NCBI GenBank assembly: GCA_937922045.1
Contig: CAKZXA010000090.1
Location: forward strand, 1 to 50,532
Reading direction: 5' to 3'
Origin: an uncultured Acidimicrobiales bacterium
GTDB taxonomy: Bacteria > Actinomycetota > Acidimicrobiia > Acidimicrobiales > SZUA-35
Length of the DNA stretch: 50,532 bases
Shown: positions 32,789 through 39,848 of the stretch, piece by piece
How the letters are laid out: each line of letters begins with the position of its first letter
Position numbering within the stretch: position 1 is the first letter of the stretch
Notes under the pieces: model-generated
The model's database searches: none
What the model saw: the letters and a program-made list of their open reading frames with translations, nothing else
What the model was told of the DNA's origin: nothing
Made by a program: the position numbers and the translations under genes

Positions 32789-32811
32789 CAGAGACGGCAC
32801 GCAGAAACGGC

Positions 32812-32851
32812 AATGGCCGTCAGATCTGGAGAACCAGGTCTGACGGCCGTT
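32812..32851. terminator. Bidirectional terminator between converging genes
   Basis: An 18-bp stem (two G-T pairs) with an AGAA loop, arms 32812-32829 and 32834-32851, lies between the frameshifted gene and the converging MalG-type gene. It is well placed to end both transcripts. Confidence 0.75.
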
Positions 32852-32873
32852 GACGATTACGTCGGATCGATGG

Positions 32874-33743
32874 TTACTTCTGGGCACCTACCGCGAGGCC
32901 GGAGATGAATTGGCGCCGAAGCACGAGGTAGATCAGCACCGTTGGCAACACCACGATCAGCGAACCGGCCGCGATCAGGTTGTCGTCGGTAAAGAACTCA
33001 CCGGAGAGGTTGCGCAGCGAGGAAGTGATCGGTAGATCATCACCCTGCTGTACTAACACAACCGCCCAGAAGTAGTCGTTATAGATCCAGGCGAACTCCA
33101 ACGTGGCCAAAGCGGCGAGGGCCGGGCGGGTTAACGGCATAACGATCTGCCAGTACTGACGCCACACCCCCGCCCCGTCCACCATTGCCGCCTCGTTCAG
33201 TTCCTTGGGCAAGGTCTTCATGTAGTTCGACAGCACGAAGGTACAGAAACCCGACTGGAAAGCTACGTGGATCAGGATCAAGCCGATCAGGCTGCCCCTC
33301 AACTGGCCGCTTTCGGAAATGAACGGGATTTCCGGTATCGGAATCCTGTTGTAGATCTGAAAGAGCGGCTGAATGATCGATTGTGGTGGCAACAGGTTGC
33401 CAGCGGTGAACAGCATCAGCAAGGCAATGTTGAACCTCCAGCTGTACCGGCTAACCGAAAAGGCCACCATCGACGAGAGGAACAAGGTGAGCGTCATGGC
33501 CGGAATGACCACAGCAAAAGTAACGATCCAATGCTGCACCATTTCGCCCTGTTCGAGCGCATTACGGAAGTTGTCGAGCGTGATCGTTTCAGGCCAGGAG
33601 AAGAAGCCCCTCGGGTTGTTCGATGTCTCGGCGTAGGGCCTGAACGCACTGAGCACCATGCCGACGATGGGGAAAACCCACAGCAGGGAGAACACCAGCA
33701 GGAAGCCTTGAGCTAGATACTGGTTTCGTTTCGTCGTCAGCAT
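32874..33743 (-). CDS. Sugar ABC transporter permease, MalG type
   Basis: A 289-residue membrane protein with six helices. It has FPIVGMVLSAFRPYAE near the N-terminus and the EAA loop LNEAAMVDGAGVWRQYWQIVMPLTRPALA that docks the ATPase. Together with the MalF-type gene, whose stop directly abuts this start, it forms the sugar channel. No ATPase gene is in the locus, so it probably shares an MsiK-like ATPase from elsewhere. Context suggests alpha-galactosides as substrate. Confidence 0.88.
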   Translation of the reverse strand: MLTTKRNQYLAQGFLLVFSLLWVFPIVGMVLSAFRPYAETSNNPRGFFSWPETITLDNFRNALEQGEMVQHWIVTFAVVIPAMTLTLFLSSMVAFSVSRYSWRFNIALLMLFTAGNLLPPQSIIQPLFQIYNRIPIPEIPFISESGQLRGSLIGLILIHVAFQSGFCTFVLSNYMKTLPKELNEAAMVDGAGVWRQYWQIVMPLTRPALAALATLEFAWIYNDYFWAVVLVQQGDDLPITSSLRNLSGEFFTDDNLIAAGSLIVVLPTVLIYLVLRRQFISGLAVGAQK

Positions 33744-34676
33744 CTACTCCTCCTCCAAGCCGCGGAACTCGTTGCGCAGATACCACACGACGAACAGCAG
33801 ACACGACAGCAACAGAATCACGCCGTAGGCCGACCCACGGCCAACGTTGGACGATTCTCCGAGAATGCTCTCGGTCACCAGAATCGAAAGCACGTCGGTG
33901 CCGACCGGGTTGTTCAACACATCGATGATGTCGAAAATCCGCAGCGCTTCGATCACGGTGATGACCATGATCACCACGTTCACCGGTTTCAACGATGGGA
34001 AGATCACCTGACGGAACAGCTGCCATTCACTGGCTCCATCGATGGCGGCTGCCTCCTTCATCGACGGATCGACGCTCTTGAGGCCAGCTAGGTACAAGAC
34101 CATGATGTAGCCGACGTGTCGCCATACCATCGGGGCAATCAAGGCCAGAAAGTTCTTGCTGAGCCCGTAGTCCCCAAGCGGGATAAGAAAAGATGAGTCG
34201 CCCAACCATGAGATCTGATCGCCTTCAGCCGTGCGGCCCAGGATGACGTTCAACACACCCTGTCGGGGTGAATAGATCACAGATTTCCAAATGAACCCGA
34301 CAACAGCGAGTGATAAGACAACGGGGAAGTAGAAAAGACTCTGGTAGAAGGCGGTGCCTCGCAAGTTCTTGTCCAGAAGGTAGGCAATAAGGATCCCCAT
34401 CGGGGTTGCCACCAGAAACAAGAACACAAGCACCCACAGATTATTGAGGAGCGCTTCGTACAGATCCTTTTCGAACACCGTGAAGAGCTGAATGTAGTTC
34501 TGCAGCCCGACAAACTTCATCGTGTCGAATCGAAAGCCGTTCCAGTTGGTGAACGACAACAGGATGGTGGCGATGGCGGGTATCCAGACCAAGCCCACAT
34601 GGAGCAAGGTCGGGACACCCACCATCCCATACATCACCCGGCGGTCGCTTTTCGAAAGAAGCGACGAACCGGCCAT
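33744..34676 (-). CDS. Sugar ABC transporter permease, MalF type
   Basis: A 310-residue membrane protein with six to seven helices. The N-terminus has VPTLLHVGLVWIPAIATILLSFTNWNGF and the EAA loop is MKEAAAIDGASEWQLFRQVIFPSLKP. It starts 3 bases after the binding-protein stop. It is the partner of the MalG-type permease. Confidence 0.88.
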   Translation of the reverse strand: MAGSSLLSKSDRRVMYGMVGVPTLLHVGLVWIPAIATILLSFTNWNGFRFDTMKFVGLQNYIQLFTVFEKDLYEALLNNLWVLVFLFLVATPMGILIAYLLDKNLRGTAFYQSLFYFPVVLSLAVVGFIWKSVIYSPRQGVLNVILGRTAEGDQISWLGDSSFLIPLGDYGLSKNFLALIAPMVWRHVGYIMVLYLAGLKSVDPSMKEAAAIDGASEWQLFRQVIFPSLKPVNVVIMVITVIEALRIFDIIDVLNNPVGTDVLSILVTESILGESSNVGRGSAYGVILLLSCLLFVVWYLRNEFRGLEEE

Positions 34677-34679
34677 TCG

Positions 34680-36044
34680 CTAGCTGCTGCCGAAGTCGGC
34701 GAAGATAGCCGTCTTCTTCTCATCGAGATCGGCGAGAAGACCGTCGATCTTCGACGGGTCCTCGATGAACTCGGCGATGACGTCGCCACAGGCTGAGGCG
34801 AAGTCAGGGATGGTGTCGCGGTCGAGGAACTGGGCGATGCCGGTCGCAGCGTTGGCCAGGTCGGCCGACTTGCGCTGCAGATCGTTGTAGACGCTGGTGT
34901 CGGCACCTGAGTTGGAGGCTACGACCGAAGGGTCGACGCCGAGGTAGGCATCCTGAGCTTCAGCGGTGGAGATGTACAGCAAGAATTCCTTGGCTGCTTC
35001 AGCGTTGGCCGGGCTGGCCACCATCTGATAGCCATCGATAGGAGCATCGAGCGCCGAGGAGCCGATGGCCGAATCGATCTCCGGGAAGTTGAAGAAGTCC
35101 ATGTCTTCGGCCATGGCATCCGAGTTGGAAGCGGCAAAGGTGCCGAGCAAGTACATGCCGACGGTGCCGTTCTCCATATCGGTTGCGGCCTCCTGCCAGG
35201 TGCGGCCGTTGCCGCCTTCCTGGGAGTAAGGAAGAAGCTGTTCCCAATTGGTGAACACCTGACGCACGCGGTCGTCGGTCCAGGACTCGGTGCCACCCAT
35301 CAGGTCGACGTGGAAGTCGTAGCCGTTGGTGCGCATGTTCAGAATGTCGAACATGCCCATCTGTGGCCACTTGCCATCGTTGGCCATGGCGAACGGGGTG
35401 ATGCCGCCAGCGGCCATGTCGTCGGCCAGGCCGAGGAGTTCGTCCCAGGTCTTGGGCTCGGTGTAGCCCTTCTCGCTCCAAAGCTTCTTCGAGTTGTTGA
35501 TGGCCCAGGTGTAGTAGAAGGCCGGCACGAAGTACTGCTTGCCATCGCTGGCGGTCGAGGCGGCCTTGAAGCCCTCACCAAGACCAGAAATCGACGACCA
35601 GACGTCGGAGATGTCTCCGAGCAGCCCCTGGTCGGCGAAGAACTTGTTGCGGAACCCGGCGAACCAGGTCAGCACGTCATCTTCGCCGGCCTGGAGGATC
35701 GTGTTGATGTTCTCCTGGAAGGTGTTGTGATCGGTCGTGTTGATGCTCAACTCAACGTCGGAATTAGGGAAGGCGGCGACGACGGCAGCCAAAGCGGCCT
35801 TCGGCGTGTCGTCCGACAGGTTCGAACCGATGGTCAGAGCGCCTGAGGCGTTGCCAGGCTCGATCGAGCCACCACCCTCGGTGCCGGCCTCGGTATCATC
35901 GCTGCCACAAGCGGCCAGGAAGCTGCTTCCGGCAACGACGGCGCCAGCAGCTGCGCTGCCCTTGAGCATCGAGCGTCGGCTGACGTTCTTTCCCCGGACG
36001 AGCCGGTCCCATTCTTTTGGACTTGGATAGCTTGCGTTCGTCAT
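34680..36044 (-). CDS. Sugar-binding lipoprotein with Tat signal (SBP family 1)
   Basis: A 454-residue solute-binding protein from ATG 36044, chosen for the AAGGGGAG ribosome site six bases upstream. The signal carries both a twin-arginine motif (SRRSMLK) and a lipobox (LAAC) near residues 21-48, so it is probably exported folded and then lipid-anchored. The mature part matches SBP_bac_1 proteins: WFAGFRNKFFADQGLL, YYTWAINNSKKLWSEKGYTEPKTWDELL, TVGMYLLGTFA. It binds the oligosaccharide for the MalFG-type permeases. Confidence 0.9.
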   Translation of the reverse strand: MTNASYPSPKEWDRLVRGKNVSRRSMLKGSAAAGAVVAGSSFLAACGSDDTEAGTEGGGSIEPGNASGALTIGSNLSDDTPKAALAAVVAAFPNSDVELSINTTDHNTFQENINTILQAGEDDVLTWFAGFRNKFFADQGLLGDISDVWSSISGLGEGFKAASTASDGKQYFVPAFYYTWAINNSKKLWSEKGYTEPKTWDELLGLADDMAAGGITPFAMANDGKWPQMGMFDILNMRTNGYDFHVDLMGGTESWTDDRVRQVFTNWEQLLPYSQEGGNGRTWQEAATDMENGTVGMYLLGTFAASNSDAMAEDMDFFNFPEIDSAIGSSALDAPIDGYQMVASPANAEAAKEFLLYISTAEAQDAYLGVDPSVVASNSGADTSVYNDLQRKSADLANAATGIAQFLDRDTIPDFASACGDVIAEFIEDPSKIDGLLADLDEKKTAIFADFGSS

Positions 36045-36068: not shown

Positions 36069-36088
36069 CCTGGTCAGCGATGACCAGG
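36069..36088. promoter_or_regulatory. Perfect inverted repeat in the binding-protein leader
   Basis: CCTGGTCA and TGACCAGG pair around GCGA, 25 bases upstream of the binding-protein start. It may be an mRNA hairpin or a regulator site. It does not resemble the LacI operator at 37231-37262. Confidence 0.5.
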
Positions 36089-36100
36089 GTTCACAGTTAG

Positions 36101-36150
36101 TGCACTTCATGTTTTATTGCTCTTCAGATTTATTGCACTTCAGGTTTCTT
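36101..36150. repeat. Three imperfect 16-17-bp direct repeats upstream of the binding-protein gene
   Basis: TGCACTTCATGTTT (36101), TGCTCTTCAGATTT (36118) and TGCACTTCAGGTTT (36134) lie 16-17 bases apart in the 124-base gap between LacI and the binding-protein gene. They form an A/T-rich stretch unlike the rest. A regulator array or part of a promoter is possible. Confidence 0.6.
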
Positions 36151-36168: not shown

Positions 36169-37164
36169 TCACGCCGACTCGCGCACTACGAGTTCGACCG
36201 GTAACACAACCGGTTCCGGGTTTGAACCCGATGTCAGTTCCAACAAACTGGCCACTGCAGTGCGTCCGAGACGCTCGCGATCAATGTGAATAGTGGTGAT
36301 CGACGGGTTCACAAATTCCGTCAGCTGAATACCGTCGCACCCAACGATCGCCACGTCATCGGGCACGGTTCTACCCGTGGCCTGGACGGCCCGCATGGCG
36401 CCGAGCGCCATCAAATCGTTGAAGGCAAAGATGGCGTCGACCTCGGGATGCTCTGCGAGGAGCTGCCTAGCCGCGACCTCGCCCGCTTCGAGGGTCAGGT
36501 CGACAGAGCGCGAGATCACCGGCACGCCGTGGGCCGTCATGGTTTCGGTGAAGCCACGGAGTCGACGCTGCTTGCGGGGCGGGGAGCTACCGCTCAGGAT
36601 GGCGGGATTGGTTCGGCCGACGGCGACGAGGTGATCGGCCACCTGCCGGGCGCCATCGTAAAGATCGATGCTTACCGAGCAAACGTTGGGGTGGTCTAAC
36701 ACATCGTCGACGAGGACCATCTGCAGGCCGCGATCCGCGAATCGAGCCAGTTTCGACTGATCGTGGTCTTCGGAGAACACGATGGCGCCAGCGATGGAGT
36801 GAGCCATCATCGAGCGGAGTACCTGCTCTTCTACCGCAGGGTCGCGATTGGTAACAGCGAAAAACATCGTGCGGCCATGCTCAAGACCGGCGGTTTGCAC
36901 ACCTAGGGCGAGATCGGGAAAGAATGGATCGTCGATCATGGTGATGACGAAACCAAACGTGTCGCTGCTGTTGCGGATAAGACCGCGGGCCAGCAGGTTC
37001 GGCTGATAATCCAGTTCGTCGACGGCGGCGAGAACACGCTGGCGTGTGGCCTCGGAGAAACCGGTCTCTCCGTTGACGACCCGGGAAACAGTGCGGGGGG
37101 AAACGCCAACTTTGGCCGCAACGTCGATCAACGTAGCTCGAGCAGCCGAATGGGCAGCAGCCAT
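36169..37164 (-). CDS. LacI family transcriptional regulator of the alpha-galactoside locus
   Basis: A 331-residue regulator from ATG 37164, preceded by AAAGGGGGATTGAAG; an ATG at 37182 gives six more residues. The helix-turn-helix is TLIDVAAKVGVSPRTVSRVVNG, followed by the periplasmic-binding-protein-like sensor domain (TFGFVITMIDDPFF, VDAIFAFNDLMALGAMRAV, DVAIVGCDG). It probably represses both divergent promoters through the palindrome at 37231-37262, released by an alpha-galactoside or a derivative. It is the first gene of the minus-strand transcript with the transporter. Confidence 0.88.
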   Translation of the reverse strand: MAAAHSAARATLIDVAAKVGVSPRTVSRVVNGETGFSEATRQRVLAAVDELDYQPNLLARGLIRNSSDTFGFVITMIDDPFFPDLALGVQTAGLEHGRTMFFAVTNRDPAVEEQVLRSMMAHSIAGAIVFSEDHDQSKLARFADRGLQMVLVDDVLDHPNVCSVSIDLYDGARQVADHLVAVGRTNPAILSGSSPPRKQRRLRGFTETMTAHGVPVISRSVDLTLEAGEVAARQLLAEHPEVDAIFAFNDLMALGAMRAVQATGRTVPDDVAIVGCDGIQLTEFVNPSITTIHIDRERLGRTAVASLLELTSGSNPEPVVLPVELVVRESA

Positions 37165-37203
37165 CTTCAATCCCCCTTTCATGCGTGGTTGTTCACAACC
37201 TCA

Positions 37204-37239
37204 GCTCGACACGATAGTCGGTTCAACACGTTACGTCAA
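37204..37239 (-). promoter_or_regulatory. Predicted leftward promoter of lacI and the sugar importer
   Basis: On the minus strand TTGACG (37239-37234) is followed after 17 bases by TATCGT (37216-37211), which fits a sigma-70 promoter with a start near 37204. The -35 lies in the left end of the operator palindrome. Confidence 0.6.
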
Positions 37240-37262
37240 CGTTGACGTCAGCGTTGACGTAA
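37231..37262. promoter_or_regulatory. LacI operator palindrome between divergent genes
   Basis: The 32 bases are palindromic except for one mispaired position pair. They contain the perfect 16-base dyad ACGTCAACGTTGACGT (37233-37248) and a second overlapping GTTGACGT half-site set. The central CG in AACGTT fits LacI-type operators. Both outward promoters use its TTGACG ends as -35 boxes, so bound repressor would silence both. Confidence 0.7.
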
Positions 37263-37290
37263 GAGGGGTTGGCAACTACAGTCATCCCTC
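37254..37290 (+). promoter_or_regulatory. Predicted rightward promoter of the alpha-galactosidase gene
   Basis: TTGACG (37254-37259), a 17-base spacer and TACAGT (37277-37282) form the promoter. The predicted start is 1-2 bases before the GTG at 37291, so the mRNA is probably leaderless, as is common in actinobacteria. Confidence 0.6.
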
Positions 37291-38667
37291 GTGAACCAGC
37301 GCAACCCCAAGATCGTGTTCGTCGGTGCCGGAAGCACGGTTTTTACCAAGAACCTACTCGGCGATATTCTCAGCTCACCTGAATTGGCGTCCTCGACGAT
37401 CTCCCTGTTCGATATCGATGCCGAACGCCTTCGCAGCTCCGAAGTTGTGGCTGGCAAGACGGCGGCCGCCGTTGGCGCAACCCCAACGATCGAAGCCACA
37501 ACCGATCGCCGAACCGCTCTCGCCGACGCTGACCACGTCATCACCATGTTTCAGATCGGCGGCTACGAACCCTCGACCGTGGTCGACTTCGAGGTGCCAA
37601 AACAGCACGGCCTGCGCCAGACCATCGCCGACACCCTCGGCGTTGGCGGCATCATGCGTGCCCTGCGCACGGTGCCCGTCCTCCTCGACGTGGCCGCCGA
37701 CATGGAAGAACTCTGCGGCGACGCCAAGCTCCTCCAATACGTGAACCCGATGTCGATCAACTGTTGGGCCATCAACCGAGCCTCCAGCATTGAGACCATC
37801 GGCCTCTGCCATAGCGTGCAGCACACCGCCCAGCAGCTGGCCGAAGACATCAACGTGCCAATGGATGAGGTCCGTTACAGCTGTGCTGGCATCAACCACA
37901 TGGCCTTCTACCTCGATTTCCAACGCCAAACCGATCAAGGCCTCATCGACCTCTATCCCGAGATCGCCAAAGTCGCGGCCCTCGGCCCCGAGAACGCTCC
38001 TCACCGTGGCGACCCAACCCGCACCGACGGCGGCACCGTTGGCCTCTCCGATGCCGTGCGCTACGAGATGTATCAGCGGCTCGGCTACTTTGTGACCGAA
38101 TCGAGCGAGCACTTCGCCGAGTACGTTCCCTACTTCATCAAGCGAGACCGCCCCGACCTCATCGAGAAGTTCGGGATTCCCCTCGATGAGTACCCCCGCC
38201 GGTGTGAACGCCAGATCGAGGGCTGGGAAGAGCTACGCGATGAGCTTGAGGCTGAAGGCTCCGAGATCGAGGTGAACCCCTCGGTCGAGTACGGCGCAGC
38301 TATCATTCACTCGGTCGAGACCGGCCAGCCTCGCGTCGTCTACGGCAACGTGCCCAACGATGGACTTATCTCCAACCTGCCCGACGACTGTGTGGTTGAG
38401 GTCCCCTGCCTGATCGATCACAACGGCGTGCAGCCGGTGAAGATGGGGGCGCTTCCGCCTCAGCTCACCGCTCTCATGCAGACCAACATCAACGTGCAGT
38501 CGCTCACGATCGAAGCCCTGTTCAGCGGCAATCGAGATCACATCTATCATGCCGCCATGCTCGATCCCCACACCGCGGCCGAGCTCGACCTCGACCAGAT
38601 CTGGGCCATGGTCGACGATCTACTCGACGCTCACGGCGACTACATCCCCGAAAACCTGCGGGCCTAG
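37291..38667 (+). CDS. GH4 family alpha-galactosidase (MelA-like)
   Basis: A 458-residue NAD- and metal-dependent glycosidase of family GH4. N-terminal Rossmann motif: IVFVGAGSTVFTKNLLGDIL; then TMFQIGGYEPSTVVDFEVP, QYVNPMSINCWAI, GLCHSVQHTA (metal Cys) and CAGINHMAFYL (metal His). These residues are those of the alpha-galactosidase subgroup. It hydrolyses alpha-galactosides to galactose plus the partner sugar in the cytoplasm. The GTG start is fixed by the promoter and motif position. Galactokinase follows after 5 bases. Confidence 0.9.
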   Translation: MNQRNPKIVFVGAGSTVFTKNLLGDILSSPELASSTISLFDIDAERLRSSEVVAGKTAAAVGATPTIEATTDRRTALADADHVITMFQIGGYEPSTVVDFEVPKQHGLRQTIADTLGVGGIMRALRTVPVLLDVAADMEELCGDAKLLQYVNPMSINCWAINRASSIETIGLCHSVQHTAQQLAEDINVPMDEVRYSCAGINHMAFYLDFQRQTDQGLIDLYPEIAKVAALGPENAPHRGDPTRTDGGTVGLSDAVRYEMYQRLGYFVTESSEHFAEYVPYFIKRDRPDLIEKFGIPLDEYPRRCERQIEGWEELRDELEAEGSEIEVNPSVEYGAAIIHSVETGQPRVVYGNVPNDGLISNLPDDCVVEVPCLIDHNGVQPVKMGALPPQLTALMQTNINVQSLTIEALFSGNRDHIYHAAMLDPHTAAELDLDQIWAMVDDLLDAHGDYIPENLRA

Positions 38668-38672
38668 CTCAC

Positions 38673-39848
<1,176 letters not shown>

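Follow-up and report, generated by a model that had tools for sequence, protein, structure and literature searches.

Overlapping LacI-type operators at a 12-bp step in a predicted alpha-galactoside switch of an uncultured Acidimicrobiales bacterium

How should a palindrome be read that fills much of the space between two divergent sugar genes and carries a -35 box on either strand? Such a palindrome separates a lacI gene from a GH4 alpha-galactosidase gene in the window, i.e., the whole stretch of 50,532 nucleotides analysed here, which is one complete contig. The first-pass annotation had taken it for one LacI site holding the -35 boxes of two divergent promoters, so that one bound LacI would block both, and had predicted that the GH4 transcript is leaderless. 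The points at issue are whether there is one site or more, which of the two promoters is conserved, and whether the leaderless start belongs to the switch.

Genes and palindrome of the locus

The genes, the palindrome and the predicted operators are the following.

32874..33743, minus strand: second importer permease (domain models)
33744..34676, minus strand: importer permease (domain models)
34680..36044, minus strand: sugar-importer solute-binding protein, start 36044 by our reading, listed ORF from 36110 (domain models)
36169..37164, minus strand: lacI, LacI-family regulator, 331 aa (domain and family models)
37231..37262, no strand: 32-bp palindrome, the sum of two predicted overlapping operators (15/16 pairs)
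37233..37248, no strand: left LacI-type operator (predicted), ACGTCAACGTTGACGT, a perfect palindrome containing the leftward -35 box (motif match 16/16)
37245..37260, no strand: right LacI-type operator (predicted), ACGTCAGCGTTGACGT, with one mismatch, containing the rightward -35 box (motif match 15/16)
37291..38667, plus strand: GH4 alpha-galactosidase, 458 aa, GTG start (NF011657, 656 bits, cut-off 486)
38673..39848, plus strand: galK, galactokinase (TIGR00131, 277.3 bits, cut-off 226.65)

The gene order places galK behind GH4, and the solute-binding protein and the two permeases behind lacI. The GH4 protein exceeds the curated threshold of NF011657, a model for alpha-galactosidases. The regulator belongs to the LacI family by both of its domains (PF00356, 61.3 bits against a cut-off of 27; PF13377, 106.3 against 26.5) and matches no named equivalog, its best NCBIfam match being RbsR with 208 bits against a cut-off of 382, and all 20 matches lying below cut-off. 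It is likely a dimer, because it ends directly after the sugar domain: the alignment to E. coli LacI stops 2 residues short of the protein's end, and no tetramer tail is seen. On the same grounds, DNA looping by a LacI tetramer is unlikely.

The palindrome, TTACGTCAACGTTGACGTCAGCGTTGACGTAA, is as nearly perfect as first described. Its arms (37231-37246 and 37247-37262) are 94% complementary with a gap of 0, it is the only 32-bp stretch of the window in which at least 15/16 pairs match, and no such stretch arose when the whole window was shuffled 40 times with its dinucleotides preserved. In our opinion, it is better read as two overlapping 16-bp LacI-type operators (predicted) that lie 12 bp apart and have 4 bp in common, the larger palindrome being present because overlapping tandem palindromes automatically create one. 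The operator consensus is ACGTCARCGTTGACGT, and its half-site, GTTGACG, includes a -35 box. Both units have CG at the centre and thus resemble LacI-family sites, which are even palindromes of 16-22 nt with a central CG according to the available sections of Ravcheev et al. (2014, PMC4052901). Counted by strand, operator matches in the window number 4, against 0.02 expected. In the 4.88 Mb of the own genome, these two sites are the only matches with at most one mismatch, and no wider regulon is seen at that threshold; contig C25 holds one palindromic match with two mismatches, possibly a weak second target.

Thus, the sequence supports the view that the divergent genes are separated by a LacI-type operator region and that the -35 boxes lie within it. 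That one bound LacI blocks both promoters is not established. The left operator covers the -35 box of lacI and stops 6 bp before that of GH4 begins, and the right operator likewise stops 6 bp before the -35 box of lacI; even so, a dimer bound to one operator may collide with polymerase on the opposite promoter.

Operator units at orthologous loci

Orthologs of lacI were collected from 16/397 genomes of the order (E ≤1e-75), from 5/22, 8/51 and 4/39 genomes of three families (1e-70), and from 4/39 genomes of the window's own family (1e-62). The sets overlap, and the own genome is counted both in the order set (397) and in the own-family set (39). Merged, they yield 22 loci including the window, with L090 and L102, which are one gene, counted once. 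At a threshold of at least 13/16 matches, three operator units are present in 8 of these loci, two in 6, one in 6 and none in 2 (L085 and L093). All neighbouring pairs (22/22) are exactly 12 bp apart, a regularity to be read in the light of the motif's ability to overlap itself by 4 bp, by which a 12-bp step is easily kept, and of the kinship of the loci, which are not 22 independent cases. The independent origins of the unit numbers are few, because unit number needs 7 changes on a tree of 21 of the 22 loci plus E. coli GntR, against a shuffled mean of 10.6 (L084 was labelled as two units by eye, and L103 was left out). Unit number varies even within families (L083 against L081 and L082; L074 against L072).

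Conservation in relatives, which had been proposed as a check on the palindrome, therefore holds for the 16-bp unit, present in 20/22 loci, but not for the number of units, which ranges from one to three. A single site read across all 32 bp would account for the symmetry of 15/16 pairs; nevertheless, relatives with one unit (6 loci) or three (8 loci) reject such a composite site, and each 16-bp unit by itself has the usual length and central CG of a LacI site (PMC4052901, available sections). We regard the single site as extremely improbable, and two 16-bp operators take its place.

A search for the motif throughout the genomes of the order found matches in 49/397, with 4-base-gap pairs of two sorts. 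Ten such pairs lie at lacI-GH4 loci of six genomes (G136, G184, G233, G341, G345 and G387). Of the remaining pairs, three were inspected and rejected as operators: those in G000 and G316 are coding (NVGDNV in related proteins), and that in G247 sits within a gene that, we presume, resembles elongation factor G. Pairs of another kind, CAACGTTG-N7-CAACGTTG with a 15-bp step, occur in G038, G044, G089, G169 and G211 and are possibly another LacI-type operator pair.

It may be asked whether the main binder is the neighbouring LacI or another LacI-family protein of the cell. The genome has further LacI-like genes (16 first-look candidates), and LacI sites have a common CG centre, so that another protein could in principle recognize the motif. 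However, the motif tracks the lacI ortholog across families, the same motif adjoining orthologs (45-53% identity) from other families, and it alters with the recognition helix. The helix reads VSPRTVSRVVN in 19/21 aligned rows and MSARTVSRVVN (SP to SA) in the close relatives L085 and L093, which have two non-overlapping TTGTCA-type sites, 34 bp apart, between lacI and GH4. This joint change of helix and sites is one event and only suggestive. Binding mainly by a protein other than the neighbouring LacI is, on this evidence, quite unlikely.

Among 63 GH4 loci checked over flanks of at most 5 kb, many of them on contigs that end sooner, the only case apart from the window of lacI directly beside GH4 is L012/L060, which are the same locus in G028, a genome of the same genus. 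The lacI of that locus, next to an intact-looking GH4 gene, is a remnant (divergent; L088 264-687) in which only residues 19-110 and 226-282 are matched, and a search of 9 kb found no operator there. In G033, a lacI ortholog with a single operator lies ~7 kb from GH4; in G024, the distance is ~6 kb, and a second operator lies 2 kb off.

Promoters and the start of the GH4 gene

The following promoter elements were assigned in the window.

37204, minus strand: predicted lacI transcript start (promoter scan)
37211..37216, minus strand: -10 box TATCGT of the putative lacI promoter (promoter scan, comparison with locus L075)
37234..37239, minus strand: -35 box TTGACG of the putative lacI promoter (promoter scan, comparison with locus L075)
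37254..37259, plus strand: -35 box TTGACG of the GH4-galK promoter (promoter scan, alignment, ortholog loci)
37277..37282, plus strand: -10 box TACAGT of the GH4-galK promoter (promoter scan, alignment)
37289..37291, plus strand: predicted GH4 transcript start, at the GTG or ≤2 nt before it (leaderless; inferred from sequence)

The promoter scan of 36900-37600 returned exactly two sites, TTGACG-N17-TACAGT (+) and TTGACG-N17-TATCGT (-), each with 9/12 matches, against a mean of 0.2 sites in shuffled DNA. The rightward promoter is borne out by the orthologs as well. Thus, an outward promoter, directed away from lacI, of the form TTGAC[AG]-N17-TANNNT is present in 21/22 loci, the exception being L084, and a stricter -10 box (A2, T6, at least 4/6) retains 18/22, while other spacings between 8 and 30 reach at most 6 loci. 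GH4 is the gene divergent to lacI in 18 loci, its place being taken in L075, L086, L090 and L103 by a gene weakly similar (24-28%) to an importer permease. In an alignment of 18 loci, selected by their match to TTGACG-N17-TA...T, the mean share of the commonest base among ten scored representatives is 0.92 for the operator part, compared with 0.53 for the spacer and 0.43 for the sequence farther upstream. In four loci of f59, the middle unit carries the -35 box, and the spacer is taken up by the third unit.

The leftward promoter is matched in the scan but finds little echo among the orthologs. Towards lacI, an N17 promoter occurs in 2/22 loci, namely in the window and in L075, which belongs to the same genus; the same count of 2 is reached at N19 in a strict scan and at N12 and N21 in a loose scan, and the other loci therefore lend this promoter no support. 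The leftward match could be due to chance, with lacI transcribed from elsewhere and the window harbouring an ordinary one-sided switch. Next to a fixed -35 box, a -10 box with at least 4/6 matches, A2 and T6 arises at N16-18 in 1.8% of shuffles (at N17 in 0.6%), which amounts to ~0.4 expected in 22 loci. On the other hand, the match is one of only two promoter-like sites in 700 bp, for which 0.2 would be expected; L075 has the N17 spacing too, with a different -10 box, TACGAT; and an SD is rightly placed for the lacI start (ATG 37164, with AAAGGGGG 7 nt upstream as read from the sequence). Chance origin of the leftward promoter is, in our opinion, a serious but minority possibility.

A promoter match on each strand, with the -35 box inside an operator, is found in the window and in L075, where a single 16-bp operator holds both -35 boxes, 2 bp apart. 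This much of the proposed symmetric two-promoter switch stands. Two-sided conservation is not seen among the orthologs, the outward promoter being nearly general and its counterpart confined to the two loci named, and the symmetry arises in part because the half-site GTTGACG is itself a good -35 box. The leftward promoter, and hence the symmetric switch, is the weaker part of the observation: such a switch is possible in the window but rare, and the one-sided version is the rule.

The GH4 gene starts with GTG at 37291, 8 nt past the -10 box, and the pattern applied detects no SD before it. TACAGT at this gap corresponds to the pattern of leaderless genes, in which a -10-like signal lies ~10 bp before the start and an SD is lacking. 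In the Actinobacteria, such TA-led genes, with a TA-rich -10 box ~10 bp before the start, account for >20% of genes according to the available sections of Zheng et al. (2011, PMC3160421); the GH4 gene is like them in its TA-rich -10 box close before the start, here with a gap of 8 nt. Upstream regions were compared for GH4 genes of at least 52% identity, 64 of them distinct, the start being the nearest codon before the conserved KI motif and SD being scored by a loose pattern; TANNNT lies 4-9 nt before the start in 20 of the 64, of which 19 lack an SD. The window is among these 19, and the gap is 6 in 17 of the 20 regions with the signal. Control offsets gave TANNNT in 1, 1, 1 and 10 of the 64 regions, and the count of 10 may stem from close relatives that share the end of an upstream gene. 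Outside the window, GH4 regions divergent to lacI have an SD in 15/15 distinct cases (the duplicates L082 and L092 being dropped); for this reason, leaderlessness is to be placed outside the conserved switch. The leaderless GH4 mRNA predicted at the outset remains plausible, and it would be ordinary for this lineage.

A predicted switch and its published counterparts

Sites, spacing, promoter matches, conservation and gene content can be read from the sequence, and from these we infer LacI as the binder, repression, an inducer, competition between dimers and the start sites. The locus is, with good probability, a switch for alpha-galactoside use that is local and autoregulated and in which repression works by masking -35 boxes. 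Its conserved core would be one operator unit with an outward promoter, and tandem units, two here, would be added at the fixed 12-bp step. When inducer is absent, LacI dimers would occupy the 16-bp operators and, because the half-site contains the -35 box, would hide that of the rightward GH4-galK promoter and that of the putative leftward lacI promoter; an alpha-galactoside or galactose would free LacI from the DNA. Because neighbouring units have 4 bp in common, dimers are expected to be in competition for registers that overlap, and not to bind side by side; such competition would raise occupancy and split coverage between both promoters.

Conversely, neighbouring dimers might fill the 12-bp-spaced operators simultaneously, binding with cooperativity to DNA that is deformed, and a short stack of one to three dimers would then close the promoters tightly; stack length would be tuned in evolution as 12-bp units are added or lost, and the repeat would let the -35 box shift by 12 bp, as in the four loci of f59 described above. 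The strict step in all 22 pairs and the three units in 8/22 loci would suit such a packed array, and overlaps between LacI sites are also conserved in other systems, for which binding of tetramers and unwinding of the DNA have been suggested (PMC4052901, available sections). The same sections state, however, that known structures bar the interaction of dimers ~13 bp apart and that the overlap falls in the zone of specific contacts. The clash at 12 bp should exceed that at 13 bp, and a motif that overlaps itself by 4 bp would keep the 12-bp step even if dimers never touched. Simultaneous occupancy is for these reasons judged unlikely, and competition between registers is the preferred reading.

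An operator region common to two divergent promoters is familiar from TetR at tetA-tetR and from BirA at bio, where the regulator covers elements of both promoters. The present locus is alike in placing a regulator between divergent promoters, and differs in protein family and operators.

Overlapping LacI-family sites ~13 bp apart have already been published and precede 110 operons, with GntR at gntKU as a cited case (Ravcheev et al. 2014, PMC4052901); the available sections of that paper argue against an artefact and leave the overlap unexplained by known structures. By our own count, the two site centres upstream of E. coli gntK are 13 bp apart. The operators described here resemble the GntR pairs in being even palindromes that overlap in the contact zone and are conserved among orthologs, and differ in the 12-bp step, in having up to three overlapping units and in a half-site that contains the -35 box. 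The overlap of the published class is present (4 bp in common), but its distance of ~13 bp is not, since 22/22 pairs are spaced by 12 bp; for this reason, we consider the array a variant that falls outside the 13-bp kind. A strict 12-bp LacI array with up to three units was not found described in the open-licence literature, the available portions of PMC2978694, PMC12195362 and PMC3454398 included. Tandem RafR and ScrR sites, which lie 21-22 or 32 bp apart on one helix face and do not overlap (PMC4052901, available sections), are comparable in that several sites for one LacI-family regulator precede sugar genes; among the loci studied here, only L085 and L093, with their two sites 34 bp apart, have a similar layout.

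How overlapping LacI sites work was left open in the available sections of PMC4052901, known structures seeming to forbid dimers so close. In the present lineage, arrays of one, two and three units occur naturally at a fixed step, with orthologous regulators and the same kind of promoter; stoichiometry, cooperativity and repression should therefore be directly readable from it. Moreover, one sequence can serve both as -35 box and as operator half-site, which allows a palindromic operator to provide a promoter on either side at low cost.

The lacI transcript possibly continues into the importer genes. Between lacI and the importer, the promoter scan found no promoter, and the one weak terminator-like site (0.5 expected) lies inside the end of lacI.

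Several minor features accompany this part of the window. The gap between lacI and the importer contains direct repeats at 36090-36147, namely a 25-nt pair (33-bp spacing, 84%) and a 16-nt pair (16-bp spacing, 88%) with a common TGCACTTCA-like core, and a hairpin, CCTGGTCA-TCGC-TGACCAGG, at 36069-36088, immediately upstream of the start of the gene for the solute-binding protein; the fold of the whole intergenic region has a z-score of -1.61. An inverted repeat at 668-699 has 15-nt arms that are 93% complementary. Another, at 32805-32858, directly after the stop codon of the second permease gene, has 25-nt arms (84%) and a 4-nt loop and is perhaps a terminator-like stem.
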